This document shows positions 8,070-33,733 of a DNA stretch of 64,000 nucleotides, one piece after another (within the stretch, counting starts at the first letter, position 1; each line of letters starts with the position of its first letter). Both the position numbers and the translations under genes were made by a program. Source of the DNA: Rusavskia elegans (taxonomy: Eukaryota > Ascomycota > Lecanoromycetes > Teloschistales > Teloschistaceae); the NCBI GenBank assembly GCA_011316305.1, contig SAUG01000086.1, forward strand, positions 248,001 to 312,000, written 5' to 3'. The notes under the pieces are model-generated. The model did no database searches and was not told where the DNA came from. It saw nothing but the letters and a program-made list of their open reading frames with translations.

Positions 8070-8356
8070 TTAACGAAATCTTTAAATAAAAGAAATAGTT
8101 TATCGATCTAGCGTTATATATATAGTAGTAAACTTTTATATTTTATAAATATTACCGAAGTTTATTTCTATCCGCGATAAAAAACTACTATAAATTTATA
8201 ATAATTATTATATTTAATTTTAAACTAATAGTATTATTCTATAATATTAATAATCGAAATATAGAAATATTCTAATATTAATATAATAATATCCGTTTAT
8301 AATAAAAGAAAATAACTATCAGATTCCGTAATAGCGTTAAAATCTCGAATATTAAC

Positions 8357-14039: not shown

Positions 14040-14711
14040 ACGATATCTAATTTTACGATACGTTTAAAAATTATTATATTTAATTTACTATTCGATTCGC
14101 TAGTTATATAACGAATAAATAAATTTATTTTTTTAATAAAAATCAGATAGAATATAATTTAAATAATAATTAATAATAAACTTTTTTAATATATTTCCGA
14201 TTTTAATAATTATATTTAATCGATATATATTAAATCGTATTTAAATCGAATTTCGAGCTTTTTAATTAATTTATATATATTAAACGTAAATATTTTTAAC
14301 GAAATAAATTTATTTATTGATATTATATATAGTAAATATAATATTTATAACGAACTAATTATATAAACCGATAATATAACTAGATATTTCGAAATCGCCG
14401 CGGCGATTTTTAAAATATAGACGGCGGATAATATTTAGATAATCTAAAATTCCGGCTAGAATACGCTAGAAAAAAAAGAAAAAAATATATTATATATAAA
14501 ATACTATTAGATTATAGCTATAGTAGACCGAATAGATATTTTTTATATAATTTATTTTAACGCGACGGTTTTAGATTTTAACGAAAGTAAAATTATCGTA
14601 GGTATAGCCCTCTAGTTTTAGGCTTCGATAATCCCGGTGTACGGCGATACTTCAGAAGCGGATCTCGTCAAGGCCATGGACTTGGATACCTTCTATCCGG
14701 GAAACTCGTAG
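14040..14711 (+). pseudogene. Possible RIP-decayed coding remnant crossing the RIP boundary
   Basis: Reading plus-strand codons back from the TAG at 14709-14711, the only internal stops are TAG or TAA, which RIP makes from CAG or CAA. The non-RIPed last ~30 codons read sensibly (VYGDTSEADLVKAMDLDTFY). Upstream the frame gives stretches such as DNITRYFEIAAAIFK. If real, this would be the 3' end of a gene pointing inward from the left end of the insert, where giant fungal transposons keep their recombinase gene. However, a minus-strand frame through the same RIPed DNA also looks protein-like, and I recognise no family. Confidence 0.25.
14613..14620 (+). repeat. Direct repeat TAGTTTTA at right edge of the RIP block
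   Basis: It is identical to 3791-3798 and sits where base composition returns to normal. Confidence 0.35.
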
Positions 14712-14795: not shown

Positions 14796-15158
14796 CTATT
14801 CCTTCCGGCTTTTCTTCTTTATCTGCTCATCGGCGTTCAGCCTCGCCAAATCCCTATACAACGCAGTCTTTCTGTCAGAGGTAGTATTCTTCCGCGCCTC
14901 CGCATCGTTCTTCTTCGCCTCTGCTTCTTTCTTCTGCGCCTTCGCTACCTTCTTCTGTTTCTTCGCTTCTTGGTACACCTTATCCGCCTCTTCGTACGCC
15001 TTTCCCGCCTCGCTGAACGCCTGACTCTCTTGGTCTTCTGCGGCTTCGAGTTCCTCGATGTCCGCCAGTATAGCTTCAATTGGCTCCTCCATCTCGTTGT
15101 ATTTTCGCTTCGATCCAATGATCGTAGGCAGTGTAATTGTGGGAGGAACTGCGAGCAT
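14796..15158 (-). CDS. Small coiled-coil protein (or 3' exon of a neighbour), unknown function
   Basis: The first in-frame ATG is at 15158; the open frame extends further upstream without ATG to about 15330, so an upstream exon is possible. The product is ~120 residues: a Pro/Thr-rich start, a KRKYNEMEEP basic-acidic patch, then a strongly heptad-like, highly charged helix with repeated EA(K/E) and KKEAEAKK runs to the stop at 14796. It lies ~180 bp downstream of the 360-residue gene on the same strand and could be its last exon if the stop at 15339 is spliced out. No family recognised. Confidence 0.45.
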   Translation of the reverse strand: MLAVPPTITLPTIIGSKRKYNEMEEPIEAILADIEELEAAEDQESQAFSEAGKAYEEADKVYQEAKKQKKVAKAQKKEAEAKKNDAEARKNTTSDRKTALYRDLARLNADEQIKKKSRKE

Positions 15159-15338
15159 AGATGGACGAGGAGTAGGGACTGTAAAGGTGGGAGGGTCGGA
15201 GACTGTGGACGTGGAGGGACCCGGAACTATGACCAGCTCCCTCGATGGCAAACGCAGAGCAGTTCCGGCTGGTATGGGTGGTAGGGTCGGCCGAGGCGGG
15301 TCCCGTACGAGATTCCTAGCGAACGATCAGCGGATTCT

Positions 15339-16612
15339 CTACTTAAGGAGAGAGACGAACTCCAAAGCCCATTCGCTGTTCTCCAATCCATTCTCTGGCG
15401 TCGGAGGGATTTCTACTAGCCTGACCGTTCTGAGGAAGTCCCCGTTCCTTCTCGCCCAAAGATCCAACGGCTCCTTAAAGTCTTCTCTGATATTGTGTGA
15501 AAACTCCAAATCAGCGAGAAAACGCACCACACCAGGCCAGACCCATCCATAGCGATTTAAGCGACCTGGCGTAAAATCCCGGTTGGTTCTTACAACCGCA
15601 ATCCGGAATTCCTTACCCTCAAAATCTGAGGACAGCGTTGCCAGAGGGAATTTGGAGGGGACGGGTGGCTTATCGTCTTCGGTCCCATCGCCTTCCTCGG
15701 TATCCTCTTCCATACCAGTGATCCCGTCGTCGTCGTTGACCTCACCACTATCCTTGCTACCCTCTACTATATTGTCCGTAGGCTCGTCGTCCTCAGGGTC
15801 TTCTGGAAGGCGGTTGTCCTCAATACCGTAAACAGTAGAGCATTTGAACCGGATAACGCAGATAACCAGCGGCTTCTTGCCTCCCGCAATTACCCCCAGT
15901 TTCCTTTCGCTTACGAAAACGTCCCGTAATCCTCCGAACGTGACCTTCCATCGGTACAGCTCGGGGGCGTCCACGAAGAGCTTTGGATCCTTGCCGCTGT
16001 ACTGTTCGTTGAACTGGGATACCTCGATATCTACCATCGCCGAAATCGATTAGCAGATGTCACTAAACCGTGCCAATTGTTTTTGCTGGTCGAACATTGG
16101 GTGCAGATGAAACTGATGCTAAACAGAATCCGAAATTTCGTATACTCACTGCCCTGCCGGAAGAAGATTTGCTCGACATTCCAAGGCTGATCACAATCAG
16201 TCAAAGTACCGTCGAAGAGATTCCTCTGTTATAGATAAAGGTGGGTCTTACTTCCGGCATCTCCTCCTTCGGTTGTATGGACTCGTAAGAATCCTCTACA
16301 TGAGTCCAAGCCTGGGTTGCATCCCCTCGATACTGCAAGCGCCCAAACTTGACTCGGACTGTACATCCTACAATCAGTATATCTTCTGAATGTGGAATAA
16401 CAGAATCCTGAAAACATGTTTCATAAGATTGAAGGGAATAAAATGTGCCTTACTGTGTCGTCTCTCTTGTGGGTTCGCCGAATGGTAGGTAGAAGCTGGA
16501 CCATTAGTCCATATTCCTGTAGCACTAAATGTACTTTACCTGAAGGAGGTACCAGGGACGGTCGAGGGGGCAGGGGGTGGCGGAGAATAACGGGAGGGTT
16601 CTCGTCAGCCAT
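15339..16612 (-). CDS. Acidic 360-residue protein of unknown family, partner of the helicase gene
   Basis: Four exons: 16612-16454, 16407-16252, 16225-16150 and 16030-15339. All introns have GT..AG ends and matching phases, and the coding length is exactly 361 codons. The protein starts MADENPPVILRHP. It has a globular-looking N-terminal part (YGLMVQLLPTIRR, ILIVGCTVRVKFGRLQYRG). In the middle is a very acidic linker (EDPEDDEPTDN, GMEEDTEEGDGTEDD). A conserved-looking C-terminal part follows (FRIAVVRTNRDFTPGRLNRY, WPGVVRFLADLEF). It has no signal peptide or membrane segment. It is divergently paired with the helicase gene across a symmetric promoter that contains four copies of the 25-bp dyad on its side. 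This implies joint regulation. I do not recognise the family. Confidence 0.7.
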
Positions 16613-16653: not shown

Positions 16654-16826
16654 CGAGAGTGATATAGATCACTTCTCGTCAAGGGAGGGGGACGGGTGTG
16701 TGTGTTTGCGAGAGTGATATGAATCAATTCTCGTTAGGAGGAGGGTGTATAGGTTTGCGAGAAAGATATAGATCGGTTCTCGTTCGGGGAATAGGAAGGC
16801 CCGAGAATGATATAGATCAGTCCTCG
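16654..16826 (-). promoter_or_regulatory. Left array: four 25-bp dyad repeats upstream of the 360-residue gene
   Basis: Copies lie at 16654-16678, 16709-16733, 16758-16782 and 16802-16826, 44-55 bp apart, all oriented toward the minus-strand gene; the nearest is 42 bp from its ATG. In the gene's sense each copy reads CGAGA, two bases, TGATCTATATCA, one base, TCTCG, with small variations. Both the outer CGAGA/TCTCG and the inner TGAT/ATCA arms are symmetric, as in a protein-binding operator or a short hairpin. Confidence 0.85.
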
Positions 16827-16995
16827 TAAGGGTGAAGATAAAAGAAGAAGAAGAAGAAGGAGAAGAAGAAAAGACAAGGTAGTCTCCAGAATTTTCCTTC
16901 ACTCGACTATGTTGAATCTTAATTTTAGCCGATATTTGACGCACAAATACCCAAAATTCAAATCGGAGTCTTTTCCTTCTTCTCCTCCACCCTTA

Positions 16996-17166
16996 CGAGA
17001 ACTGATCTATATCACTTTCGCAAAGCATACACTATCCCCTTAACGAGAACCGATCTATATCTTTCTCGCAAACCTATACACCCTCCTCCTAACGAGAATT
17101 GATTCATATCACTCTCGCAAACCCACACACCCTCCTCTTGACGAGAACTGATCTATATCACTCTCG
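16996..17166 (+). promoter_or_regulatory. Right array: four 25-bp dyad repeats upstream of the helicase gene
   Basis: Copies lie at 16996-17020, 17044-17068, 17093-17117 and 17142-17166, 48-49 bp apart, ending 44 bp before ATG 17211. Same dyad and spacer family as the other two arrays. Confidence 0.87.
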
Positions 17167-17210
17167 CATAAACCACACACCCCCTCTCTTCTCTCCCCTC
17201 AGACGCAATC

Positions 17211-20200
17211 ATGCCGCCCAAAGCCACCAAAGCCGCCAAAGCCACCACAGCCACCAAAGCCGTCCCAGACAAGTATACGGCGAAGCTTGCCGGGCTGTCT
17301 TACATGGACAATTCTGGAAAAGACCCAAGAGACGAAGCGAGCTGGAAAAAGCTCGAGCAGCAGGTAGGCATCGTCGAGTTCAAGCACTCGATCCATATCA
17401 CCCAAAAGTCTGCAGCTGCGATGGTCACTCTAGACTTCGCAACTGACCAGTTTTCGGGTGGGATGGTGCGGGAGGGGAAGAGACCAAGTGATCCGATCAC
17501 GGTAGGTGACACCCAACTGCCTGCCACCCCACCATTGCATAGAATAGTCGCTGACTACTGGTAGGTGGAGTTCCGGACTGGAGTGCCTACAGTCCGCTAT
17601 GAACCGGACACCGAAGAGGCTCACAATCTGCCACTCGCTCTGGTGTACAAGAGCTTCCAGTGTATCCGGCTCGCCATGATGTTGAAGGACCTGACTTCGA
17701 CTGGTGGTTCCAAAGCCACCAATGCCAAGGAGATGGTCGGGCATTTGAGGGTTCTTCTGACTGGTCATGAGCGGCTTGACGTGAGTCACTACCCGTATAC
17801 TCTACAGACGAGGCTAATACACAAGTCTTCGATAGCCGAACAACCGGTGGCACAATGTCTTCCGTGTATGTTCACCCCATATTCCCACCCTCGTCGTGTC
17901 AGAAATCAACAGTCGGTACCTCAATTTGGTATCCATGCTATCGACTGCTTTGATGTCACTGAAGAGTTACTAAAATAATCGGGAGCTCGTCTGGCGGCTG
18001 CCTGAGTGGCTCACGTTGCGATTGACATCTGACACGACGAGACACTCTTGCAGAAGACCGAGGCTAACATTACTTGACCTGTAGACAGATTATACGGCCC
18101 TGAACCTCGAGAGTAAAGCTCAAGAGGCGCAGCTGGGGAGATTCAAGAGGTAAGGCAATTATTGGGGCTCTTATACCCGAATTATGCCCAGTCAACATAT
18201 GAGATATGGTTCCAATGCTCGAGCGTGGTTCCCAAACCCTTTAAGCTCCTTAGTCGTGTTCTCAGAACTCAAAACTCTACAATAGCTCCTTACGAAGACT
18301 TGCTGACTCTGAATGTACTATAGCTGCCGTATCGTCACCAGCCCCAACAAAACAGGCAAAGCTCTGATTGGCCATGTCTACTTCGCCAAGGCTGGGAGCG
18401 TCAAGGACAAAGACGATGACGAAGACGACGTTGAAGATGTTCTCGCGTCTAGGATTGGGCAAAGCTTCTTCGTGAACTCGTCCAAGTTGCTCCCTACCGA
18501 CGACGAGACGTTAAAGAAGCACAGCATCTTGGGCACGGCGCAGACCGAGGGATGGGAGCTTTCGGTTTCGAAAAATCCCGATGATTCCGATGCTGATGTC
18601 GTTGGGACTTTCGCCAACAGTAAGTCAATTTCAGGAGCTGTTATTACCCAACCCTCCCCAACTCAAGCGTGGTTCCAAAACCATCTGAGCTCTTGAGACA
18701 TGTTCTGAGAACTCTACAATATCTCTTCAAGCAGACTTGCTGACTTCGAAATTTACTATAGCCTTCCCCAAGGGCGACATCAAAAACTTCGTTGGTGAAG
18801 ACCGCGGAGTCACACTGGATCCTATCTTTCAAGATGTTCAAGGACAACGTCAACGGTTTTCGATCTCGAAGTTTGGTCAGAACCTCGACAACGAAAGCAA
18901 GAAGCTGAGAGGCTTCTTCGTCGACCCGAACAAGGAGGGGCAGCCAAAGTCGAAGCTTCCGGTCGACATGCTCTTCAGTGGCCCGGAATGCGAAACCGAC
19001 AAGAACGAACTCCCCGCCGGTGATATAGGAGCCTTGGCGGATATCGTCGACCAGCTGGATCCGACCCAGACAGAGGCCTTTGTGAACGCCTTGAACCACG
19101 CAATCTCGGTTGCACAAGGGCCCCCCGGCACAGGTAAAAGCAGGCTGATCGGAGCCATCATACGGGCCTTGATTGTGAAAGGGGAGAAGATCGCCGCAAC
19201 AGCTTCATCGAGTAAGTATTTAATCCTTGTATGACTCCGTCGATGGTTGCAAGCTAATGGAAATGCGACCAGATGTTGCTGTAAATAATCTACTCGACGC
19301 CGCTGTCTCGTTTTGGAAGCTGGTCCTGCCAGATATCCCGCCTCCGTTCACCCGGATCTTTAGTGAGGCGCAAATTCTTAGCCAATGGGCAATGGGCGAG
19401 TTGGACGTCCTGAACTCTCCATACCATCTAGACCAGCTCAGATATCGACGGGCTATCCAGGAACCTGAGAGATGGACTGGATATCTCAATGGACGCCAGG
19501 AACTCGCTGCCAATGGGATCATAGACAGTAAGGATCTCTACAAAGCCTACAAGAAGGCCGCCAAGGACTTGAGTAGCAAAGTCCTAGAGGCTGACATCAT
19601 GGCGGTCTTTTGCACCGTCACCGGCGCTCAGGCATCTGCGCTTTACCAGGAGGACCCCATCGATGGCAACCTGAAATGGTTCTATCCGGCAACGACGATA
19701 ATCGTCGACGAGGCGGGTACGATCTGGCGGCCGGCTTTGATGATGCTCGTCATGACGTTCCGTGATGCAGCCCGCCTTATCCTCGCTGGCGATCCTATGC
19801 AGTTGACTGGTCTGCTCCTCGACCCTAAGACCCGCTCGCTTTGGCCCAAGGCGTATCTCCAAGACGTACGTTTTACATGTCTGCCAGGTATTCTTCTAAT
19901 ATCTATACATTGCTAATCTCATGACCTAGATCATGGACCGCAAGTTTCCCAAGGTCATCCTGGGAAAGCAGTATCGGATGCATGACCGTCTATATAGTCA
20001 TACGGCCGCTATTATCTACAAGATGGTCATCGGCGCGCAAAAATTGACAAATAGCCCCTCGCCTTTCCTCCAACGCCTCCTTGCCAGCCCAATCACCGTC
20101 AATACGCCACAAGCCACTTACCAGCTTGGGTCATACACCCATTTCTTGGATGTGCCTTACGGTGTTCAGGAGACCGGCGACGGCTCAAGCAGCTTCAATG

Positions 20201-21431
20201 AAGCTGAAGTCGAAGTTGTGAACAGTCTCGTCTTGAGCCTGCTGGAACGTGGGGTCTCCAAGGGCGATGTAAGTCAACTTTCGGAGCGATTATTGCACAA
20301 TCCTTCTCAAATCAGCACTTGAGATATGGCCTCGAGACTCAAACGCGGGGCGTGAACCCGTTGAGATCTGTCCTCAGAAGTCTACCAACGTACCCTAACA
20401 CGTGCTGACTCTTTGGGTTATCATAGATCTGTGTCATGACTGGATACTCAGCACAGAAGAAGAAAATAGAAGCCGCCGCGAAAGCAAACGGTTGGGCCGG
20501 CGTCAAGATCTTGACTGTTGATTGTAAGTCAATTATCGGAGCTGTCATTACCCAAGCCTTTTTAAATCAGCATTTGAGACTTGATCTTAAGGCCCAAACG
20601 CATGTTATGAATCCTTTGGACTCTGTTTCCAGAGGTCTATTGTTTCGATCCCGGAAGAAATGCTGACTCGGATCTATATTATAGCCTCACAAGGGACCGA
20701 GCATCTTGTTGTGATCTTGAGTCTCGTCAACAGCAAGGGCCTTCCCGGTTTCATTGGCAAGAAACAGCGGGCAAACGTGGCCACGTCAAGGCAAAAAGAG
20801 GCCTTATATTTCGGTATACCTTGTAGATACTGCATGAATGAGTATCCGCTAATCACTTGATAGTTGGCAAGGAAGCTTTCTGGTTCGCAAGGATAGCGAC
20901 CAGCAAGAAATGGATGCATGAAATCCTAAAATTCATGAATACGGCGAGGTTCGGGTTTATCGCCCGTGATCAGGGACCAGCCGCTGTGTAAGTCTTATCT
21001 ATGCCGTGTAAATAAGTACCCACTAATCAATGGATAGTCAACAAACGCCGGTGCAGCAGATCAACGCTCCGCTTCAAACTCTGGCGATTGCCGACAAGCC
21101 TGCGGAGCCGAATAATAAGCAGGCAGCTATTGCAGCAATCCGCCATCAGTATGATGAAGCGATGAATCGGCTGTTAGATGAACAGCTAAAAGTTCAGGAG
21201 CCTTTGGACAATCGCATCATGGATATGGATGCAAAGAGAATGCGTGCGGAGTCTCAAGCCGACCGTGATAAGGTCGACGAGGAAATCGTCAGGCTGGATG
21301 AGGTATTGAGGGCTCGTCGGGGCGAGTGTGACCGGGCTGTGAAGGCCCTTGAGGCAGAATACGAGAGAAAAGTTCGGGAATTGGAAGGGGTGGAGGAAGA
21401 CAAGGATGATAATTTGTACAGTGCAGATTGA
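17211..21431 (+). CDS. UPF1-like superfamily 1 helicase, many exons
   Basis: The start is MPPKATKAAKATTATK at 17211, directly after the dyad array. Exons I can place: 17211-17501, 17565-17780, about 17836-17865, one or two small ones to 18149, 18324-18619, 18762-19211, 19273-19865, 19930-20268, 20427-20523, 20685-20813, 20864-20987 and 21038-21431. The helicase motifs appear in order: QGPPGTGKS (Walker A), SSNVAVNNLL across an intron (Ia), VDEAG (Walker B), GDPMQL (III), KQYRMH (IV), VMTGYSAQ, TVDSSQGTEH (V) and ANVATSRQKEALYFVG (VI). These are the UPF1/SMUBP2-type SF1B signatures. The C-terminus is a charged coiled coil. There is no UPF1 zinc-binding CH domain, so this is a relative and not the mRNA-decay factor itself. 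Its role in the element is unknown. Confidence 0.88.
18150..18323 (+). repeat. Introner-like intron A of the helicase gene (174 nt)
   Basis: It begins GTAAGGCAATTATTGGGGCT and ends TGCTGACTCTG..GTACTATAG. It shares internal blocks (ATGAGATATGG, GTGTTCTCAGAA, CTCTACAATA) with introns B, C and D, and is two to three times longer than other introns in the window. Confidence 0.85.
18620..18761 (+). repeat. Introner-like intron B of the helicase gene (142 nt)
   Basis: It begins GTAAGTCAATTTCAGGAGCT, then GTTATTACCCAA, CAAGCGTGGTTCC, TGTTCTGAGAACTCTACAAT, and ends TTGCTGACTTCG..TTACTATAG. It is clearly homologous along its length to intron A and, at both ends, to introns C and D. Confidence 0.88.
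20269..20426 (+). repeat. Introner-like intron C of the helicase gene (158 nt)
   Basis: It begins GTAAGTCAACTTTCGGAGCG, then ATTATTGCACAA, AATCAGCACTTGAGATATGG, GTCCTCAGAAGTCTAC, and ends GTGCTGACTCTT..TATCATAG. Confidence 0.86.
20524..20684 (+). repeat. Introner-like intron D of the helicase gene (161 nt)
   Basis: It begins GTAAGTCAATTATCGGAGCT, then GTCATTACCCAA, AATCAGCATTTGAGACTTG, and ends ATGCTGACTCGG..TATTATAG. It splits the helicase motif V codon run TVD-S-SQGTE. Confidence 0.88.
20814..20863 (+). repeat. Second intron family, copy 1 (50 nt)
   Basis: This intron and 20988-21037 are both exactly 50 nt. They align along most of their length (CTAATCACTTGATAG against CTAATCAATGGATAG, GAGTATCCG against AAGTACCCA). 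This suggests duplication of a short intron. Confidence 0.6.
20988..21037 (+). repeat. Second intron family, copy 2 (50 nt)
   Basis: Partner of the intron at 20814-20863; same length, similar sequence and the same branch-point-like CTAATCA 15 nt from the 3' end. Confidence 0.6.
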
Positions 21432-21960
21432 TTTTCTATTAGTAAAATGCTCCTTTTTCCACAGAATGTTAGACTTCCATTAAGGTTTGATGAAGAAAAT
21501 GTAAGCAATGTACAGGTCGTAGACAGGTTCGGCGTTCCGGACTGCATTCATGATTTTTCCTGCAAAATCACTTGGATGGAGAATGATCTAAGGTGAGCTT
21601 GATTTCATTTTCTTTAAAAAATACGGACTGCTCCACCCGCTTTCACCAGGCCCATTAGTTTGGCCCTTCAAGGCTGTATGGAATTAAGGATTGAGAGTTG
21701 ACGCTGCCTTTATCTTCCTTGTCGTTGACGCCGTCCTTCAACAATGGTTCAACCTATAGAGTGTCGAGACCTCCATCTTCTTTCTCTGGAATCCTGTTTG
21801 GCAGTCATTTCTTCTACCATTGCGACTGGCTCCTCCTCGTCGTTTTTTTTTCGTGGCCTTCCCTTATTCGGATGGAGACCAAACGGCTCCTATTTTGGTG
21901 TGGCTAAGTGGAGGTAGTGGTTGGCTGCTGGCTATAAGAGAAGAAGGAGTCGTCGCCTTT
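21432..21960. other. Helicase 3' flank with no gene seen
   Basis: Normal base composition and only short frames without conserved features. It probably contains the helicase transcript end. Confidence 0.4.
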
Positions 21961-21971
21961 GGGGCCATTGC

Positions 21972-23083
21972 TTACGCGATAGAAAGAGAGGGGAGGACGT
22001 GGTCGGGTCTTGCTTTGACCCTGTTCAGTCCTTCTTCGCCCGCTAGCTTCTTGATAAGTTTCTGTTGGCCACTGGCATCGTGGCCGTTTGCATCCGACGA
22101 GGCGAGCAAGTCCCAGCCAATTCTGAAAACACTGTGATGTTCGGTGCTTGATAGTTGTTCCTGGGGATCAGGAAAAGCTATTTCCGGGAGCGGGCTTCGT
22201 ATTCTGAATCGGCCGTGGAGGGAGTCAGACGGGTTTTTGGGGACGGTGGTAGCGGCTGATTGGAGCTGGTGGGTGGCTGCTGGGGGTGTGAATAATAGCA
22301 AGCAGTTCTCGTATTTAAGGCACATTTTGCGTGACGCAAAGAGCGAACAGGCGGTAGTTGTAACCGCCAGGGCATGTACAATTCATCAGTGTACCACATG
22401 TTCACGATCTGCGACCACGACACCACCCACAGTCACAGCGAGGCGAGTGAGCCGGCTATATCTGAAGAATACTGTATATACGGGTTATGTGAGTATCGCA
22501 CTCTGAAACCTAAAGCAACATGAGTACTGATGTAAACACCCAGACCACCGACTCATCGCTCGTACATGGTACTTCTCCTACATGGGGCGCAAGCAGAGGA
22601 AAGCTAAGATGATATTGGAAGATTGGCAGAATTCAAACAACATTGCGCGCGGAGACAGGTAATACGGGAATCCTGAAATCAAATGTGCTCTCCATCCAAC
22701 CTCACCTTCCACACTTACTATCCTCGCCCACGTCCCTCCATGCTGCTATTTGTAGGGAGAAGCAAGCCTCAAACCGACGACGATTGAACTGAGGATTCGG
22801 CGTCAGAATTCTTAGCCTCGTTCCTTCACGAGAACCAGCTTTTCAGTACGAGGAGACCGAGACCATATATTCGCCAACCCTTGGTAGACTCCACAGCGCT
22901 TGGCTGAGTATGAGAACTTCGATCCAAATCTTCATGCAGGGAATGGTCCAGTCTTGGTTTTGTGGGCTTCCCTGGATTCCCCAACAAGTGAATTTGTGAA
23001 GACACAGGAGCTGTCTTTGAGGACCTTGCGTGACACTCAGAAGCTTTGAGATCGGCGCCAGTGTATGAAGTCCGAAACAGCAA
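21972..23083 (-). pseudogene. Decayed gene-family fragment, copy 1
   Basis: Minus-strand pieces here resemble pieces at 25.9-26.3 kb and 25.0-25.2 kb. SDANGHDASGQQKLIKKLAG resembles SDARSQQRFVKKLTIEEA; LTPSTADSEYEARSRK resembles LAPSTDLEHEARFRK. The frame near 23060-22980 contains SF-VSRKVLKDSS, with an internal stop, against SFWVLRKTLTDSS. Frames are broken and the two blocks stand in opposite order relative to the other copy. I read them as remnants of a duplicated gene of unknown function. Confidence 0.45.
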
Positions 23084-24183
23084 CGGGACAAGTTTGGGTT
23101 TGTTCTTTTGCCTTTCGACCTCTTTTGCGGGACAAGAGATAATGTCGGCGAACGAGCTGCCCGAGAGTCTTGCAATCTCCTTGGTACTCGGAGCGTGGCC
23201 CCTTGAATATGGAGCGTGGCCTCTTGAATACGGATCGTAGCCTTATGAATACGGAGCGTGGTCTGGTGAATGCGGAGCGTGGCCTCTTGGATGCGGACCG
23301 TGGCGTTGCCCAAGAACAGCGATGTATGATATCCCTTGCTACCGGGCCCGAGTTGATCACCACTGGCTGGTAATATACGATTCTTTTTCTCGTATCCTCT
23401 TACAACTACCTAATATTACTACGGAATACTGTCCAGCGCACGCTCTGGATGCCAGCGGGAAAATGAAAGGATGGTAGAAAATTGGAAACGCTACTTCGAA
23501 TTCCGACCAGTGGAAATACAGTAATCTAAAGGAGCCTGAATCTGTGTAAGGCTACCACACAGGGAAGCCTATACAATATGGGCGAGGGAAGGTTCGCTGG
23601 CAATTCAGCCCAGTATTCGATCGGTCGGATGTGATAAGCGTGGGTTATGATGGGAAGGATTTGGGTATGAATTGCGGTACCGAGTCGGACTGACTTATCA
23701 CAATACGAAGGGAACGGGTGAAGCGGAATCTCTGGATCTACTCTACCAATCATAGACATTAGGTAGGCGATTGGCAAGGTCTGGCATGTGGACTTTGTCA
23801 GCCATAACCTGTGGCATCCTTGAGAAAGGGCGGTGGTGGTGGTTGCCAAGTCTGGCTTGTTCATCTCAGGTATATTAACCACTCCAGCGTGACTGAGCAT
23901 GCTTCGCGGGGAGCGGACTGGTTTCCTTTGACGTTGCTCCTGATACATAGCCCATGACAATGGATTGGAGACTGGCTGACTTCCAGAGGTAGCAGGGCCG
24001 AACACCGGGGGACTTGCCTCTTCGTGAAAGTACTATTGGCGGCTTTCGAAAGAAGACTGGACAGTAAACACGTCGGCTGAATATTCCAAATTCAATAACC
24101 AACTTTTCGCTGCTGTCCAGACTTACAGCGAATTGTTATCTGGCTCATACAGTCCACCATGTAGGATAGTGCGTGAACGACCT

Positions 24184-24765
24184 TTAGCTGCGTTCAGTTG
24201 CTCTATGCCACCTCATTATTAGCTGGAGGTCGATTGGATGTTGGGAGGATGGAAATCTTACGAATAACTTGTGGATGAAGATAAAGATCAGGTGATTGGG
24301 TGAGATTGAATTCCAGTGCATGATAAGTAAAGCGGTAGGCGCAGATGGATGTGGTCCTCGGGATGGCATATGTACAGGAGCGTTTTTAGATTGGGCAGCC
24401 CTGAATTGTCCAGTAGTCCGTACCCTCGTCATCCGTCTTGGATATATCCATGTAGTCGAGCCATAGTCCGGCAAAGCAGCTTTGAGTCTGGAGTCTTCCG
24501 AATTCGACGGTCTTATCGTATCTACATTCTAGAAGGGAGATTGTACAGAGGATGTTACACATCGCCGTTCTTGGGGTAACCCGTTCAAGAGAAGAGGCCA
24601 TGCTCCACATACTGTCAGAGCTTTCTCGTAACCCTACAGCGTCTTGTCTTTGCACGCGCATCTGGCTTGCAGTAGATTGTCGTTCGGTTCGTCCGGGTCG
24701 CGGTTAAGGATGGTTCCGGGGAAGCCTTTTGCTGCGTTCAATTGTTCTATACTAATATAAGCTCA
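24184..24765 (-). pseudogene. Duplicated exon-like segment (QLNAAKG motif, two copies)
   Basis: On the minus strand, EQLNAAKGFPGTILNRDPDE (just below 24765) and QLNAAKGRSRTILHGGLYEP (just below 24215) are clearly related and lie ~545 bp apart. Each follows an AG-type acceptor. They look like exons of one gene or of two tandem copies. No family recognised. Confidence 0.45.
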
Positions 24766-24964
24766 AGACTGGTGGGGCAATCATGAATCTGAAGGCTTAC
24801 CTATGACTCGTAGTGGTATGCAAAGACCCTCAAATCTGGTCGGATTGGACTCGTGTGACCATAGGCGCAGAATCTTGTAGCCCTCATAGAGCCTTTATAG
24901 TGGTCAAGAGTGTGGCAAGGATACGGGAGTCATTGAGGAATGGGCAACTCATCATCTGAGCGAA

Positions 24965-25261
24965 TCAATCTTTTAGTATCCGTCTATCGAGCGAGCTTTG
25001 GGAGGTGCCAGCTGGCCGAACTTGGAACAGGTTGTAACACAGGTTGTTGTCCAGCCAAGGAATGGGACTGTTATTTGGATAGGCTCCCTTCCACATATCA
25101 TCGAGTAGCGACTTAGTGGCACCAGAACTGTCAGTGAGAGTCTTGCGTAACACCCAGAAGCTCTGTGTATGGCGGATGGTGGGCTGCCAATGCTTCTTGT
25201 GGTCGTATTCGGTGACTTCAATCAGAAGTTCAACACCTGGCGCAATGATGAAGCTTGACAT
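24965..25261 (-). CDS. Open exon of the same unknown gene family
   Basis: A 98-residue open frame reads MSSFIIAPGVELLIEVTEYD, then HWQPTIRHTQSFWVLRKTL and WKGAYPNNSPIPWLDNNL. The composition is protein-like and the region has a degenerate relative at 23.0 kb. It may be an internal exon of a minus-strand gene spanning roughly 26.4 to 24.2 kb; I could not join the exons with confidence. Function unknown. Confidence 0.45.
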   Translation of the reverse strand: MSSFIIAPGVELLIEVTEYDHKKHWQPTIRHTQSFWVLRKTLTDSSGATKSLLDDMWKGAYPNNSPIPWLDNNLCYNLFQVRPAGTSQSSLDRRILKD

Positions 25262-25922
25262 CCTTGGGCGTGGATCGAGGCAGTCAAAAGATGATTAAGT
25301 GGAGGTAACAATAGCCAAGCGTCCAATTCATGCTGGTGCAGCAGACCTGCGTCCGACAAAGCAAACCGGGCTGGTGGTCCATCTCCTTTTCCTCCATTTG
25401 TATCACCACATCCTCTCTACCACGCCTTTGCTTCTCTGTCGAACCTGATTCCGACGCCCGGTCAACAGGCTGTTCCTGTTGTTGCTGTAAGAGGCGTGAA
25501 GATGTCTTCAATCTGGCAATCGGCCGGTTGTTCATAGTCGCTCCATGCACGCACCGAGGAAACATTCGAAGCCACGCAATCGTACTGTCGCTTGCAGCTG
25601 CTCAATCTCAGAAGCAATGCTTCTCGTCGAGCCTCCGCGAAGCTGCTAATTTCTCCTAAACTAATTCAAAGGTTGAAATTGTGCTCCGGCATTAATTTTG
25701 GATGTCAGCGGTGTCGTTACCATAAACGAGACCCATGCTTCATAGAGAGGCTTTGCTGTCATATTGAGTTTTGCAGCCGATGAATTCAGTGAGCCTAGAC
25801 CATCTTACGGCCTGGTGTTATCCAAGCAGCATCGAGATGTCCACATGCCAGACATGGCTTCCAAATCGAATTGAGATTCCAGCACAACAACGGCTTTCTG
25901 GGTGACCCTGAGTGATATGGCT

Positions 25923-26460
25923 CTAGAGAGAAATGGAAGGCATGGGCACCTCGGCGACTGCCAAGCTCATAGTAGAAAATATCATCCCCAGTGGTCGAGC
26001 TTCTTCGATAGTAAGCTTCTTAACGAACCTTTGTTGACTTCTGGCGTCCGATAAGGGGAGCAAAGCTTGAAGAGGAGTTTGGTAATAGCCATCTTCATTC
26101 CCAAGGATAGAATGGATCCATTTTCGAAAGCGGGCTTCGTGCTCCAGATCGGTAGAGGGAGCCAATCGGTTCTTTGTGGAGTGGAGCTGGGGCATTTTTA
26201 TTTCTGTCGGGTTCGAAGAAGGGATCATATAGCGAAACGGTCAGGGCCTTTTCCACAAGACTTTCCCTGGTAGGACACCTTTTGTGGTGTTTCGTTAAAG
26301 AGCGTGTCTGTTCTATCAAAAGTCTTTGGCATTAGCAGCAAAATCTGAATTGAAACTTGGCGGAACAGTGTACATACTGGCCTCTGAAGTGTTTTGTCGG
26401 CAGCTTGTTCGAGGACCTTGAGGCTATCGAGGAGCTTTGTAATATCAGACCCCACACTCG
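25923..26460 (-). pseudogene. Upstream fragment of the unknown minus-strand gene
   Basis: Minus-strand reading gives SDITKLLDSLKVLEQAADKT, a GTATGT-type donor, and then three competing frames. One carries LAPSTDLEHEARFRKWIHSI and LSDARSQQRFVKKLTIEEA. This last segment recurs at ~22.2 kb, and a weak echo is near 27.9 kb. A frameshift or decay is likely. Confidence 0.4.
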
Positions 26461-29190
26461 GAGATCCGACCTGGAAGTGATTGGGATTGGCGAGAGGGTG
26501 GTTCTGGAAGTTTCTTTGCAGAGTGCAGATAATGTTCTCGAGGGGTTTCAGAGAGGATGTGGTGAAGAGTAAATTTGGTTGCTTGGTAGATGGACCAGGT
26601 GGACGTGGATGTGAGGTGGATAAACGGAATGTTGAAGCGTGGAAGAAGTTGGTTGGAAGACGGCGGGTTTTAAGGAGTGGTTGTCAGAGGAGCCAACTTT
26701 GCCTTGATCTATTGACCTCCATCCTTCTAGCGGGTTGTACAGGCCTCGGGATTAGGTGGGACGAAATTTGACTTCTGATTGCTCGTCAGTATTGTTACTT
26801 GACCGGTGTTATATAACTTTACCTCGTTGAGCTCCCCACGTACTTATGGTTCTTGGTCCTCTCACAGGACTTTGTAAAACGAGGTAAAGTGACTGATGAT
26901 GCGTAAAGGAGCAACGGCTAAGCGTCTGAACAACGACGGAACTGCTGGTGCAGGAGACATGAATCTGATAATATGGAGATAACTGATAGACAGTGCACAA
27001 AGATTGCACGCGTTGTCGCAATGAGGTTTGGAAAGAAAGTTCAGGTACCGAAGCGAACCATAGTTGAAGTTGTAGATAAGGTTCAATAGAGATTTCCAGA
27101 AAGAGAAGAAGCGACCTCAAGTCGACGGGAATACGAAAGCAAGGGAAACTTCCGATCTTGAAAGTCGACGGTACTTGGTGATCTGTCTGGTGATTTATTC
27201 CCAACGAATGCTCCAAGGTGAAGAGGATGCGACGACGGAGCGAACGAGAATTTCGAAGAGAGGGATAGCCTAGCTGGCTGGAACTGTATATCTTGTCCCA
27301 ATTACCAAAAACTCCCTCCTCGACTGACGGCTTGTAGATCAGCCTGGGAGAATCTACAGAACGATAACGCTGTAGAGCAAGGCCTCGAAGACTTAAATGC
27401 AGGCCAAAGCTATCGGGCACGCCTGTCGACTGTCCTTCCTCAGATCCAAGAGCGGTCCTCCAGAGAGAACGAGATTCAATACCGAGGAAGAAGAGGATTC
27501 TATCCTCGCGGTACCGGCCGTAGAGGTAGTATTACTGGAAGTCAGCCTGTACGAACGGCGCTTCGGAGGTTGGTTTTTATCGGGTCATTTCGCCGGCCCC
27601 GATCGCTGATAGAGGACCAAAGTGTTAATCGACAATGAAAATAATCACACTGCTCGACGTATAGTAGCACCCAAACATCCTCGACCATCTGCTTCAAAGC
27701 CGTCCACTCCCCCGCCTTCGAACGGATACTCTAAGACAAGTTCTGCCCCCGTCTGGATTATACCAAAATCCTTCGTAGCTGGCAAGCTTCTTGAACGAAC
27801 CTCTTTAACTACTGATGTCCCACGAGGCGGGTGATTCGCTGGGAATCTTGAAGAAGAGGAAGACTGTAATCTCAGGTACTTGGCGATTTTTCCAGGGGAT
27901 AAGATAGGTCTGGTTTCGGGAGCGGTCCTTGTAGTTTGAATCGGTAGAGGAAGTCAATAAGTCCTTTTGTTATTAGCTAGGTGTTGGCCATGCGAGGAGT
28001 AGCAATCGTCGCCTTTTAGACGATTTCTTACATGCCAGAAAGAGAGAGCAGGTGGTGGAAGGATCGTAACTGAGTGGGATTGGTAGGTGGCGCCTTTGAC
28101 GTCTTTCTTCGGTGATAATAGGTTCGAGGCTGGATTTGAATTTGCGACCGAATCACCGTTAAGGTTGTAGCATGATCCTCTGCGCGCTCGATGTCAGTCA
28201 CGAATGGTAGAGAGACGTAAGAAGAGGATTAGGCTGCATCCGATAGGTACCTTTTGGGGCTTCGTTTTATTGCCTTACAGGGACGTGCACGCATCGCGCT
28301 AGAGAAATATCAACCAGGGATTTATGCGCATTAGTTTATAGTATATTCAAACGTACAACAGAGTATTCTTCGATGTCCCTACTCTTGTCGCTATGGAGTT
28401 CGGTAGAATCTAACCAGTGCGAGGTTGGATTCAGTGGAGGATCCAGATCATCTGCAATTTATTAACTGCGGTCTCATGTTTCGACGAGAAGGGATTGTCG
28501 CATCCACATCACTAGGAGGTCCAACGACTATCCTGATAACAGTACTCAACTCACACGATACACCATGTACTCATGTCGGAAGTGGAAGAGCATGTACTGG
28601 GTTGACTGTCGAAGAATGATCCAGCCCACCGGTCTCCACGCAATTGCAGCTGATGCTGCCAGAGGAGATGACACAAGGTCAGTGAACTCGTGTGCTTGCT
28701 TCCTACGGCTTGGGAGGTACTACAACACAACTGACAGAAGATCAGATAAGCACTGCTTATCACTAGACCCGTTGCCGTCGAGAACGCCAGGGATCAGGAA
28801 GACTCACGTCGTAATACCACTCCGCAGAGTCCTACAATATCCACAGCAGCGACACTCCTCCGTCGCGATAGATGAACCTGCTCGGGTATTGAGCCAAGTG
28901 GCAGATTGTCTCATCAAAGCAGCAAAAGAGGTACCTAGAAGACAGACGGTTAGCAGAGGTCGTTGATCAAGCTGACCGCAGATGAAGGTCTGTGACGAGC
29001 CCTGGCTCTCAGGTCTGTGTACCTTTCCCCACGTACACATGCGCTCTCGTCAATTCAAAAGCGCAAAGAAGATCTCGCTAGAGATGATGAATGTTTGATA
29101 GAGTCAAAGAGTGAAGACAGATCGGAGATGCGCACTCTGTGAGAGGCTATAGCCATTGAAAGCGTCGAAGGGTCTGTGAGGATGGCCTTA
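26461..29190. other. 2.7 kb without a supportable gene
   Basis: The longest frame (27420-26809, minus, 203 codons) has an unconvincing composition. A competing shorter frame (27086-26862) is equally plausible. Near 27900-27960 there is a third, diverged copy of the minus-strand segment found at 22.2 and 26.1 kb. I see nothing else I can name. Confidence 0.4.
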
Positions 29191-29220
29191 CTTGGCAAGT
29201 AAAACTCCTGACATGGTACG

Positions 29221-29706
29221 CCCGGATTCGTCGGAGTTGATCGCAAAGCCTCGAGACTGCCCTGAGGAAGCTCTGAGCCCGGATTCGTCGGAGTTGTTCC
29301 TAAAGCGTCGAGACTACCATGAGGAAGCTCTGAGCCCGGATTCGTCGGAGTTGTTCCTAAAGCGTCGAGACTGCCCCGAGGAAGCTCTGGCTAAGATGAT
29401 CGTTGTCGAATTCCAAAGCGTCGAGACTACCATGAGGAAGCTCTGGCTAGGATAATCGTTGTCGAGTTCCAAAGCGTCGAGGCTGCCCTGAGGAAGCTCT
29501 GGCTAAGATGGTCATTCCAAGGCGTCGAGACTACCATGAGGAAGCTCTGGCTGGGATGGCTGCTATCGGGTTTGTTTTCCAAAGCGTCGAGGCTGCCCTG
29601 AGAAAGCTCTGGCTAAGATGGTTATTCCAAAGCGTCGAGACTACCCTGAGGAAGCTCTGGCTAAGATGGTTATTCCAAAGCGTCGAGACTACCCTGAGGA
29701 AGCTCT
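29221..29706. repeat. Minisatellite, about nine units of 48-60 bp
   Basis: Units share GCGTCGAGACTACC(A/C)TGAGGAAGCTCTG. The first three are ~57 bp and would encode SPDSSELFLKRRDYHEEAL; later ones replace the first half with GGCTAAGATGGTTATTCCAAA. Unit boundaries drift, so a single coding frame is not kept throughout. It lies ~240 bp upstream of the third dyad array. Confidence 0.85.
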
Positions 29707-29944
29707 AGCTGGAAGTGTCGTAAAATCGAGAGATAAAAGGTACTGATCAATGGATGGCCAATGTACTCGGTAAGTAGCACTCTCGGTTGTATTGTAGGTT
29801 GGGAAAGGACGGCGTGACGTAAAACACGCTAACGAATTACCTTTATCTAAACGAATGCCTCGCACTTTCATATTCTCTCTTCGTACGATGTTTATGAAGC
29901 CAGAGATCTCGTATTGAAAGCTGAAGCGTTGTACCATCCCCTTA

Positions 29945-30109
29945 CGAGACGTGCTCTATACCAATCTCGCAAACCCTTCCCATCTCCCTACGAGGACTGA
30001 TCTATATCACTCTCGCAAACCCTTCCCCATCCCCCTACGAGGACTGATCTATATCACTCTCGCAAACCCTTCCCCATCCCCCTACGAGGTCTGATCTATA
30101 TCACTCTCG
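29945..30109 (+). promoter_or_regulatory. Third array: four 25-bp dyad repeats upstream of the Ulp1-like gene
   Basis: Copies lie at 29945-29969, 29991-30015, 30038-30062 and 30085-30109, 46-47 bp apart, with the common spacer CAAACCCTTCCCCATCCCCC. The last ends 75 bp before ATG 30185. The dyad is the same as in the arrays 13 kb away, in the same orientation relative to the gene. Confidence 0.88.
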
Positions 30110-30184: not shown

Positions 30185-33100
30185 ATGCCACCACGACCAA
30201 AAAGTTTCAAAGCTCTAGCGGATCGATTAAAGGAACTGCAGGATGTCGTTGCTGCAAACCCTAGTAACGTAGACGCCAGCCAAAGACTTACCGCTGTCAA
30301 GGCACAATTCGACCAGGCGAAGGCGGAGATGAAGGCTAAAAACAAGGCAGCCAAGGTACTAAAACCCAAGGCTCCTCCTAGCCAAGGTACTACGACTACC
30401 AACAGAGAACAAGTTGCCCTCAAGCTTCAGGAGCAGTTGGTCCAGCAAGCCCGGGTCACTTTGAAAAGGCTCGAAGAGCGAAAGTCAAACCTGGAGACGG
30501 ATATCGAATTGGCCTCCGGACAGCTCAGAGCCGAAGAAGCCAAGTTAAAGCAGCTCGAGTCGAGGCTCAACAAGGCAAACAAGTCCGTCGAAGCAGCTCA
30601 GATCAAGCGTCGTCAGCTGCATAAAGAACAGGCTGTCTCAAACTTCGACAAGGCACCAGACGCTATCGGAAGTGTTCAAGATGAGGCCCAACGAAATCAA
30701 CCCGACGAACAAACATCCACGGCCGAACACGAGCAAGGCGACGAGCCCACCCCTCAAGTCGAGCCCACCCATCAAGTCGAGTCCGTCCAGCAAGTCGAGT
30801 CCAACCAGCAACTCGACGATTCCAATCAGCTTATCGATAATAGCCTTGAGCTGGACGATAATAATGGTGACAACGAGCCCGGCTGGGACTACGCTTTCGC
30901 CCCTATTACTGCAGAGAAACCGGCTACAGTGATTCCAAAGGTTGCCGACAAGACGGGATTGGTCTCCCCCGAAGATCTGGAAGAAAAGGACCTCGTGGAC
31001 CTGGAAGGTGACGCTATCAGCTTCTCAATCGCTGCCCTCGTCGTCGGCATCTCCTACCAAGGCGTGAATATCGGTATTATACCCGACATCTTGCAGATGT
31101 CAGCTCGGTTCGGCATTACCAACGAGGTTGCTTGCCTGACCGGACCCGACAAGATATTGATCCCAATCTTGTTGAATACCAGCGGTCAACTTTTAGATTG
31201 TGGGCAGGAGGACCGCCAGGGTCGAGTCGTTGAGCCCGTAGAAAAGGCCGCTGTAGAGCTCTCCGCGGAGGAGATCGCACTCCATATCGACCAGAATAAA
31301 TGGATAGGCAAGACCGGCCACTGGTTACTTGTAATCGCAACAAGAGCCGCTGGTATTGTCGATATAAAGTTCCTCAGCAGCATCATGTTTGGACCTGGCG
31401 ATGGCTACGACGGCTCGGAGCCCGTTGTCCGGAGAATCGCCCGCAACATCGTACGATATTCGGGTTGGATGGGCTCCACTATACCTGTATGGGGAGAAGA
31501 GGACTGGGACGTGCCCCATTTTCAAGCCTTTGGTAATACCTGTGGTATTCACGTGGTTATAAATGCCTGGGCCGAAATCCTCCAGTTGAAGTTGGATAAA
31601 GACGCCCCCTGGCACCAAGACGAGAGCTTCTACAGAGAAGCAAGGTACCTGATAAACAGGGCATCATCCGGCGACGCCAGTGCCCGTGATATTGAAGCCT
31701 GGCTGGTTGGACGGCAGACAGTCTTTGCACGAGAGCACGAGCCAGCCGCTGGTAGTGAGCTCGCCGCTATTATGGAAGCGCAAACCGTCCCTATAGATGG
31801 ACCGCGCCTTGCCAGTTATATTGACCAGGCCAACCTCGATGCAGTTATTGCGGCCTCTCGCGTCAATACTTCCGGTGCCAATACCTCGACCGCCGGTATT
31901 ACAGCCCCCAATGTCTCCACCGCTCTGTCTACGACTAAGCCGTCCACCACCAATGTCTCTACTTCTTCGGCTCCCATATGGAAGTCTCGCGGCTATGTTA
32001 CCGATACAGAGGACGAGGAGATGTCGAGCACCAGCAGTGAAAGCCAGGATGCCTCCGCTGTCAATATCTCCGCCACCAGACCCGCCACCAAACCCACCCC
32101 CAAAACCGCCACCAAATCCACCGCCAAACCTGCCGCCGCCAAAGCCTCTGCCCCTAAAGCATCCGCCCCTAAAGCCTCCGCCCCCAAGGCCTCCCTGTCG
32201 ACCGCGTCCGGTCAACCTGGACACCGCCGGTCAGGACGAGCTAGGCGGACTCCGCCTATGGCGCCCGGTTTCGTTAGTACTTTGGTTATCCAAGAAGCGG
32301 AGGAACTGGCCAAGAGGAAATTCGCCGAGTCGGATAACGAGTCTTTCACCGACAGGAATCAAAACGGTGAAAGCGACGACAGTGAAGGAAGCAACGACGA
32401 GAGTCGTGCGGATAACGGCGAAGGCAGTAAAGATGACGACGACGACGCCGACAACGATAACAACCGTGGTGCAAAGTCTGCCGTTGCGGAGTCAGCAGTT
32501 GCTGATGAATGGACTACTGAACATCGATTCCAAGCTTTTGGACTGCTTGATCCAGACAGAGCGGCGGATCTGGCGAAGGACATTGGCTTTCATATGTCTA
32601 AAGATGTCGCTTCAGGCCACATTACAACGTGCAAGCATCTTGCATGTAGTGATGTGGCTATACCCTCAGACGTGGCTAATTTGGAGACGGTTAAAAAGAT
32701 GAGGTATAAAGTCAAGAATCTCATGAAAATAAATGTATTTTCTTTACAAAGAGAAGTTCAGCGACTTCGTATCAGTTGTCCAAGAAAATACACCAAAGAG
32801 CTAATGGTCAAGCGGCTCGAATCCTATACTCAAGGTACCGCCCCAATAATTCGGCGCCGAATAATTCTCTCCGAGAAACGTGGCCCAAAGAGAACCAAGG
32901 CGGAACTCGCAGAATTGGAGGGACTTGAGGAGAAAGCGCGCCAGCTACTACTGTCGCGTTCCAGAATAGAAGGCGGGATATCCAGAAAACTGACACTAGA
33001 GGAGTTCCGCTCGAGGGTTGGGGAAGCGGAGGAGCGAGAACGACAACGTCTAACATTCGGGGTCGACAAACGGCTACCTCAGATCTATGTAACTGGAGCC

Positions 33101-33733
33101 TCGAAACTGGTTCTTCTCGTTTTACGTTACAGCGCAGCTCCTCCGGAAACTCGAATCGAGAAAGATAAAGGCTATTTACAGAAGATCGAAGAAGCTCTAC
33201 GCCAAGGACGACTTCTCGCCAATCTCGAAGATGCGAGTTACCAACGGATTCTCTGGCGAGCGCGCGCAGGCGATCGTGAGATGCCTCTAACACCCGAAGG
33301 CTTCGAAGGTGATATTATCACAAGTGTTCGTGACCTACAACGGAAGGCTGGGAAGGATAACGTGGAGGTCGTCTTCGTTCTGTGTGGAGTCGACGGGCTT
33401 TCTGTCAACTTTCAATCATACGGGCCATTTGTGGACCAGTTCAGAGAGGTCAAGTTTACCCTCCTTATTGGAGAGTCTTTGCAACAATGGACGCATGCTG
33501 GTGTTCTATGGGCTTCCTCAGATTGGAGTCAGGAGGAGCTGGGGAGACGTTGGGCGAAGATAGATATACAGCATATCGTGGAAAACCCAAGGGCTTGTCG
33601 ACTGTATATAGATCTGATTATACAGTGGGAATTCTGCGCGGGGGCTCGTACTGGATATAAAGAGGCGAAGGCATCTGACCCGCGACGGGGTAGCGGAAGG
33701 GGGGCCCCTCGTGTAAAACGGCAAAAGAAATAG
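30185..33733 (+). CDS. 1182-residue protein: coiled coil plus Ulp1/C48-like cysteine protease domain
   Basis: A single uninterrupted frame, unlike its neighbours in the insert. Residues ~60-150 form a coiled coil (LQEQLVQQARVTLKRLEER and following). Then comes a Gln/Val/Glu repeat region, and a peptidase-like domain at ~280-480. That domain has GHWLLVIAT (His ~379) and FQAFGNTCGIHVVINAW (Gln ~447, Cys ~453), matching the His, Gln and CG elements of Ulp1-type peptidases. An Asp at the usual place is not obvious, so activity is uncertain. Next are Ala/Pro/Lys repeats (APKASAPKAS), a GRARR basic patch, an acidic stretch, and a basic C-terminus (GSGRGAPRVKRQKK) suggesting nuclear location. Family knowledge: C48 enzymes cleave SUMO-type modifiers; related domains occur in several eukaryotic transposons. 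Here it shares its promoter repeat with the helicase gene. Confidence 0.8.
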   Translation: MPPRPKSFKALADRLKELQDVVAANPSNVDASQRLTAVKAQFDQAKAEMKAKNKAAKVLKPKAPPSQGTTTTNREQVALKLQEQLVQQARVTLKRLEERKSNLETDIELASGQLRAEEAKLKQLESRLNKANKSVEAAQIKRRQLHKEQAVSNFDKAPDAIGSVQDEAQRNQPDEQTSTAEHEQGDEPTPQVEPTHQVESVQQVESNQQLDDSNQLIDNSLELDDNNGDNEPGWDYAFAPITAEKPATVIPKVADKTGLVSPEDLEEKDLVDLEGDAISFSIAALVVGISYQGVNIGIIPDILQMSARFGITNEVACLTGPDKILIPILLNTSGQLLDCGQEDRQGRVVEPVEKAAVELSAEEIALHIDQNKWIGKTGHWLLVIATRAAGIVDIKFLSSIMFGPGDGYDGSEPVVRRIARNIVRYSGWMGSTIPVWGEEDWDVPHFQAFGNTCGIHVVINAWAEILQLKLDKDAPWHQDESFYREARYLINRASSGDASARDIEAWLVGRQTVFAREHEPAAGSELAAIMEAQTVPIDGPRLASYIDQANLDAVIAASRVNTSGANTSTAGITAPNVSTALSTTKPSTTNVSTSSAPIWKSRGYVTDTEDEEMSSTSSESQDASAVNISATRPATKPTPKTATKSTAKPAAAKASAPKASAPKASAPKASLSTASGQPGHRRSGRARRTPPMAPGFVSTLVIQEAEELAKRKFAESDNESFTDRNQNGESDDSEGSNDESRADNGEGSKDDDDDADNDNNRGAKSAVAESAVADEWTTEHRFQAFGLLDPDRAADLAKDIGFHMSKDVASGHITTCKHLACSDVAIPSDVANLETVKKMRYKVKNLMKINVFSLQREVQRLRISCPRKYTKELMVKRLESYTQGTAPIIRRRIILSEKRGPKRTKAELAELEGLEEKARQLLLSRSRIEGGISRKLTLEEFRSRVGEAEERERQRLTFGVDKRLPQIYVTGASKLVLLVLRYSAAPPETRIEKDKGYLQKIEEALRQGRLLANLEDASYQRILWRARAGDREMPLTPEGFEGDIITSVRDLQRKAGKDNVEVVFVLCGVDGLSVNFQSYGPFVDQFREVKFTLLIGESLQQWTHAGVLWASSDWSQEELGRRWAKIDIQHIVENPRACRLYIDLIIQWEFCAGARTGYKEAKASDPRRGSGRGAPRVKRQKK

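Follow-up and report, generated by a model that had tools for sequence, protein, structure and literature searches.

In a 64,000-nucleotide stretch of contig SAUG01000086.1 (positions 248,001 to 312,000, hereafter the window), three genes are each preceded by an array of short dyad-symmetric motifs, and paralogous genes elsewhere in the same genome carry similarly placed arrays of other motifs. The dyad is private to its locus and, in both complete gene trios, is common to all three genes. The genes, here called gene1, gene2 (a helicase) and gene3, form a multi-copy gene module of narrow distribution, probably in a lichen ascomycete. The explanation that we tentatively prefer, with somewhat less than even confidence, is that the arrays could be stem-loop signatures in the leaders, by which a product of the module would recognise and jointly control the module's own genes. 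Judged from sequence, self-recognition in trans would be the simplest account, and action on RNA is placed slightly ahead of action on DNA. C206 denotes the window's own module, and loci elsewhere in the genome carry labels of the same kind. The relevant parts of C206 are, in window coordinates:

14796..16612, minus strand: gene1, about 519 aa, spliced, with a beta-rich part and a C-terminal coiled coil and no known domain
17211..21431, plus strand: gene2, a spliced superfamily 1 (SF1) helicase with AAA_11 and AAA_12, Upf1/SMUBP2 group, head-to-head with gene1
30185..33733, plus strand: gene3, a single-exon orphan of 1182 aa with predicted N-terminal helices and a separate C-terminal part
16654..16826, minus strand: gene1 leader array, dyads at 16802, 16758, 16709 and 16654 (towards the gene), 41 nt from the last dyad to the ATG
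16996..17166, plus strand: gene2 leader array, dyads at 16996, 17044, 17093 and 17142, 44 nt from the last dyad to the ATG
29945..30109, plus strand: gene3 leader array, dyads at 29945 (degenerate, like unit 1 of C151), 29991, 30038 and 30085, 75 nt to the ATG
16694-16794 and 17032-17132: arms of an inverted leader copy between gene1 and gene2, 96% complementary over 101 nt, 237 nt apart
29788..29937, plus strand: promoter-like block of gene3, also found before the C75 gene3 fragment and the C151 HNH_2 gene, with a weaker match before C21 gene3

Twelve dyads matching CGAGA-N2-TGATCTATATCA-N-TCTCG were found in the window with up to three mismatches allowed (two exact, five with one and five with two mismatches), compared to none expected by chance from 100 shuffles. 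They form three groups of four, each in front of one start codon, and their orientation follows the gene in all 12 cases, the four before the ATG at 16612 lying on the minus strand and the other eight, before those at 17211 and 30185, on the plus strand. Number, places and orientation agree in full with a preliminary description of this DNA. The spacing of about 48 bp given there fits gene2 (start-to-start distances of 48, 49 and 49 in gene orientation) and gene3 (46, 47 and 47), and less well gene1 (44, 49 and 55). Its statement that the spacers are conserved applies in parts to gene1 and gene2, through the inverted copy listed above, and does not extend to gene2 and gene3, where dyad identity is 0.88 as compared to 0.45/0.55 in the 10-bp flanks (four versus three units, the degenerate first unit of gene3 being excluded). 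A genome-wide scan, which had been suggested at the same time, covered 44.16 Mb with a slightly looser pattern and up to three mismatches. It returned 17 matches against three for a reversed control pattern, comprising the 12 window sites, C151:18636 (two mismatches) and four scattered matches with three mismatches.

A second trio is present at C21:

569699-573118, minus strand: C21 gene3, with one stop codon within the match
start at 578466, minus strand: C21 gene1
start at 578905, plus strand: C21 helicase

The proteins of C21 and C206 are 36-50% identical in the matched pieces, all three having diverged to a similar degree, and the gene order is unlike that of C206, as gene3 lies past the 3' end of gene1. 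The dyad GCGGATT-N-AGTC-N2-GTAC-N2-AATCC is common to all three C21 leaders, and genome-wide it has three exact matches, all at C21, plus one match with three mismatches. Pairwise, the C21 sites are identical at 21-22 of 25 positions (84-88%), whereas the 20-bp flanks agree at 3-11 of 20 (15-55%), indicating that the sharing of the motif is not merely due to copied surroundings. A second site type, GCGAAG...CTTC, occurs in the leaders of gene1 and gene2; in the gene3 leader, the second site is merely a degenerate one. The original proposal of a single regulator for the three genes becomes likelier with a second trio that has its own private shared dyad. However, two divergent genes at C194 carry different motifs, so that a single motif per module does not hold throughout.

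The array layout recurs at seven loci (C206, C21, C194, C191, C50, C151 and C75). In the 12 readable leaders, that is, outside copies that resemble products of repeat-induced point mutation (RIP-like), one to five dyad units at a spacing of 38-55 nt closely precede the start codon; beyond the loci surveyed, the genome has helicase matches on C84, C97 and C167 as well as fragments of gene3 on C25, C182 and C16. The helicase paralogue at C194 has five tandem units with the dyad AGAGGACTACGGTGTAGATCCTCT, the array ending 120 nt before the ATG, and the helicase paralogue at C191 has four with the dyad AGACTTCTCGCTTCGGTGTTTCGTCT, ending 6 nt before the ATG. The divergent neighbour of the C194 helicase, a gene1-like gene (34% over 50 residues, E 4e-7), carries a five-unit array of yet another dyad. 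At C50, a divergent stretch has two units of a single motif on each side, and the rearranged remnant at C75 contains two units. At C151, a promoter block of the gene3 type (84% over 299 nt) and an array whose core is for the most part different precede a gene for an HNH_2 nuclease. Promoter block and array are separable, since gene3 and the C151 gene share the block and mostly not the dyad core, and genes 1, 2 and 3 share the core. When nine motif versions were scanned with up to five mismatches against the window and all fetched loci but C43 and C213, every version matched its own locus only, except for the C206 version in unit 1 of C151. Besides the arrays described here, the window and the 11 fetched loci of 10 kb contain two tandem arrays with a period of at least 30 (C151:15579 and C75:13099). 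The gene3 copy at C43 and a piece of helicase leader at C213 are RIP-like (GC 0.24 and 0.28; TpA/ApT 1.32 and 1.56, respectively); a search for motif remnants in purine/pyrimidine letters yielded scattered three-mismatch matches in C43, none in C213 and an array in neither. The C151 nuclease gene (C151:17374-18687, L038), with its gene3-type block and leader array, is the only HNH_2 match found in the genome.

The position of the arrays relative to the transcript was judged from ATG counts in the 12 leaders of the seven loci, the arrays of which comprise 1579 nt in all, with expectations taken from dinucleotide shuffles. The arrays contain no sense ATG as compared to 11.4 expected, and none of 500 shuffles was as low; with one leader per motif family, the expectation is 7.15. 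Whole leaders contain one ATG instead of 17.3 (0/300 shuffles as low), and 8.4% of random host stretches of leader-like lengths are ATG-free. Going upstream from the start codon, the first ATG is met only past the array in 11 of the 12 leaders, at 5 to 301 nt from it; in the twelfth, that of the C194 helicase, an ATG lies 8 nt ahead of the start that was chosen. In the case of gene3, this first ATG is 291 nt before the start, within the conserved promoter-like block. The 300 bp above the arrays, a loose control that includes the other gene's array between divergent genes, contain 49 ATG and 30 CAT. Because upstream ATGs are lacking, the arrays look like transcribed leader, and they are probably part of a 5' leader starting just upstream of the first unit rather than upstream operators. 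The earlier label of promoter arrays is, taken strictly, probably wrong, as the arrays appear to lie in the transcript downstream of the promoter-like block at 29788-29937.

Alignment folding, compared to column shuffles, favoured a hairpin in sense orientation in eight of nine sets (0/400 to 0.0225), and the ninth, C191, gave 0.06. One of these sets pools the three C206 sets; C151, C75 and the second C21 site were excluded. Antisense folding was about equal to sense in C206 and C50, passed in C21 (0.0425) and narrowly missed in the C194 helicase (0.07), and it failed in C194 gene1 (0.67 versus 0.005 in sense) and in C191 (0.32 versus 0.06). Double changes in the stems were few, namely A-T to G-C between C206 and unit 1 of C151, G-C to A-T in the C194 helicase and C-G to T-A in C194 gene1, together with broken pairs. 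An asymmetry of wobble pairs, nine G-U against one A-C types in fixed stems, was considered as proof of RNA function and rejected as biased, because the stems had been chosen on the sense strand. Around gene1 and gene2, all Rfam matches were below the gathering score, the best of them, MIR5638 (99 versus 500 bits), corresponding to the long inverted repeat, and the Rfam search around the gene3 array gave no match.

In the explanation that we tentatively prefer, the arrays inside the transcribed 5' leader would form stem-loops, and a module product, for which gene1 and the Upf1-like helicase are candidates, would recognise its own motif version and jointly control the genes of its module. New versions may be spread by tandem duplication and by copying from leader to leader, with the reader following, and each module would drift to a private code. 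A module could in this way activate itself alone, or alone escape silencing. Leader copying, as seen in the 96% inverted copy, is the raw material for new versions and also the main alternative. The most elaborate form of the idea, a selfish fungal module in which every copy has a private leader RNA code and a co-evolving, module-encoded RNA-binding or helicase reader without cross-talk, as an RNA-level counterpart of VANC, appears doubtful to us.

Several observations weigh against a stem-loop code read in trans. Since the leaders of gene1 and gene2 are near-identical inverted copies, part of the sharing at C206 is recent copying. C21 lacks a tandem array proper, with two site types present once each in the leaders of gene1 and gene2 and one clear plus one degenerate site in that of gene3. 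The gene1 and helicase arrays at C194 carry different motifs, no array was seen by eye before the divergent frame beside the C191 helicase, and the divergent frames at C191 and C50 had no gene1 match in the fetched pieces. Neither gene1 nor gene3 showed a nucleic-acid-binding domain. Folding of single units was weak, with P<0.05 in sense for 6 of 15 units, and by a crude Watson-Crick dyad score only one of the 15 reached 0.05; moreover, the dyads were chosen by eye before the tests, and the folding windows were centred on them. If A-C pairs at stem edges are included, the wobble tally is about 9 versus 5 by our own count. The contrast between zero ATG and 18 CAT, the antisense count, in the arrays is largely compositional, because 24.4 CAT are expected. 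In addition, neither tandem copies nor related leaders count as independent, and the majority of start codons were assigned by us. Owing to the points on C21, C191 and CAT, our confidence, which was just short of even before, has been lowered slightly.

Alternatively, the dyads might serve as operators in double-stranded DNA. A factor encoded by the module would bind them and thereby activate the three genes or lift their silencing, as VANC does for VANDAL elements, and the position of the dyads near the transcript start would be incidental. This would agree with the strong conservation of the sites, centre included, with one private motif per locus that is common to three genes in two modules, and with the similar antisense and sense folding in C206 and C50 and the antisense result for C21. 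The targets of VANC likewise look like tandem, same-orientation, non-coding motif arrays that diverge between copies (PMC5735166, PMC10398659). We nevertheless regard operators in DNA as rather unlikely, given that no DNA-binding domain was found in Pfam and PDB searches of the module proteins and that the outer and inner arms of the C206 dyad have, by their sequence, different symmetry axes (positions 13 and 13.5), which is unusual for a homodimer site. C194 gene1 folds in sense and not in antisense, C191 leans likewise, short of 0.05, and the missing sense ATG suggests a transcript-based reason. Improbable is also that the arrays have no function in trans, with slippage making the units, copying spreading them, and hairpins or pyrimidine-rich spacers having at most a general role in the leader. 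The near-identical inverted leaders at C206, the different motifs of the two C194 genes and the sequence turnover among paralogues would fit such an origin, but dyads are better conserved than their flanks between the three C21 leaders (84-88% versus 15-55%) as well as at C206 (0.88 versus 0.45/0.55), and the layout recurs at seven loci. Very improbable is that a mobile element uses the arrays for recombination, transposition or replication, like the subterminal repeats of DNA transposons. The RIP-like and rearranged copies (C43, C213, C75) and the different gene orders of C206 and C21 would fit such sites. On the other hand, the arrays precede start codons in gene orientation, and the scanned open reading frames (ORFs) contain no transposase and the module contigs no DUF3435 match, although this is weak as element ends were not found.

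Among known systems, the VANDAL transposons of Arabidopsis with their anti-silencing VANC proteins are the nearest analogue of the module. Private tandem motif arrays are read there by the element's own protein and can co-evolve with this reader (PMC5735166, PMC10398659). A multi-gene family with non-coding tandem motifs of the same orientation that differ between copies is found in both systems (PMC5735166, PMC10398659). The module arrays are tandem, same-oriented, non-coding and private to the copy, less clearly so at C21 with its few sites. However, the module is fungal, its motifs are hairpin-like dyads of 23-28 nt that are spaced by 38-55 nt and closely precede the start codon, and in place of VANA, VANB and VANC it has a helicase, gene1 and gene3, with candidates only for the reader. 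Unlike VANDAL elements, which have a MuDR-type transposase and a VANC protein, the module showed no transposase family in Pfam scans of the given ORFs, which spliced or decayed genes could escape. Starships, the giant transposons of Pezizomycotina (PMC12134995), are similar as multi-gene, mobile-like cargo in ascomycetes. The DUF3435 captain of Starships has 11 matches in the genome, none of them on C206, C21, C194, C191, C50, C151 or C75. The best DUF3435 match, C177:30039-31399, with one stop within its first piece, could be a Starship unrelated to the module. Neither the ORF scans nor the DUF3435 search of the module contigs identified a mobility gene. That the regulator is encoded by an element, as first suggested, is plausible, with the lack of a transposase family in the scanned ORFs and of a captain match on the module contigs counting against it. 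RIP-like and scattered copies suggest past multiplication of the module.

If self-recognition operates here, related modules within one genome would have diverged in their cis signatures while keeping their architecture, and the co-evolution of regulator and sites would be directly testable. Sequence-specific self-recognition by selfish elements would then extend from plants to fungi, and possibly to RNA. Should the arrays not be read in trans after all, the repeated turnover of a dyad-bearing array at a fixed position before the start codon at seven loci still needs explaining. In the literature, no such module is named in the titles and opening parts of abstracts that were covered.

For gene1, the modelled exons are 16612-16454, 16407-16252, 16186-16150, 16030-15343 and 15315-14796, the last junction being uncertain as it would mean a 27-nt intron, and the start codon is backed only by resemblance to the C21 protein. 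Homologues were found at C21 and C194 and among database proteins (five), in which Pfam detected nothing above the cut-off. The structure model of one of them, P0007, was uninformative (predicted local distance difference test score, pLDDT, of 50), and a Foldseek search with it returned nothing at E<=0.001.

The gene2 start codon is supported by the Flavoplaca citrina homologue P0011, which likewise starts with MPPKA and is 67% identical over residues 1-864; the exons after 20523 and the last exon (21030-21431) were placed by eye. AAA_11 and AAA_12 scored 29.9 and 34.7 bits (cut-off 27) in separate exons, and P0011 matches structures of SMUBP-2 and UPF1/NAM7 (E 3e-9 to 2e-7), in keeping with the Upf1/SMUBP2 group of SF1 helicases. 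Database homologues number 77. Five of them show 44% identity or more and cover 53% or more of the query, whereas the match that follows them in E-value has 28% over 51%, which sets gene2 apart from the Upf1/SMUBP2 group, and no role in mRNA decay is implied. Several gene2 introns resemble one another (18150-18185, 18620-18655, 20269-20304 and 20524-20559, as well as 18218-18313 and 18662-18750; 67-86% to one reference copy). That they are mobile introners was rejected, as one intron tested genome-wide matched itself alone and only the similarity within the gene remains.

The start of gene3 is supported by the C75 paralogue, aligned from residue 1. For gene3, Pfam gave no match and PDB sequences none that was convincing (chance level), the structure prediction was uninformative (pLDDT 41), and five database homologues were found. 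Its motifs around H379 and C453 recall, by eye, the Ulp1/C48 cysteine proteases of transposons. His, Cys and the Gln preceding the Cys are invariant in all six aligned domains (P0002 excluded). By contrast, the acidic position of the triad, identified by eye and not one alignment column, is Ser or Asn in four of the six, those of lichen fungi and the window, whereas the distant P0005 has Asp. No profile support for Ulp1/C48 came from searches of Pfam and PDB, which returned nothing or matches at chance level.

Close homologues of the module proteins come from Flavoplaca, Xanthoria, Xanthocarpia, Gyalolechia, Polycauliona, Haloplaca and Physcia, all of them lichen fungi. Three of the species bearing homologues belong to Teloschistales (two) and Caliciales (one), and in Xanthocarpia lactea the homologues of gene1 and gene3 have consecutive locus numbers and are assigned to contigs of equal length. 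Contig scans found no relative of gene3 on viral or prokaryote contigs and none of gene1 on viral contigs, the only ones scanned for it. The window is fungal, as its neighbouring genes encode Sec7, Puf/RRM, YL1, Ecl1, RRM, MFS and PDS5 domains.

In the interval between gene2 and gene3 (21440-29200, about 8 kb), no gene was recognised, and pieces match C204 (82%), C9, C75, C15 and another part of C206. Genes sought between 21.4 and 29.2 kb gave six partial matches elsewhere in the genome and no match to module proteins. Upstream of the gene3 promoter block lies one further feature:

29220..29717, plus strand: tandem array with a unit of 48-57 bp

This second kind of tandem array precedes the gene3 promoter block in both modules, at C21 in positions 573695-574627 with about 17 copies of 55 bp. 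On the other side of the module, beside gene1, the window contains an AT-rich block (4001-14500, GC 0.21) with RIP-like dinucleotides. Parts of it (8347-9008 and 9706-10244) match C43 and C16, at C43 upstream of the degraded gene3 copy.

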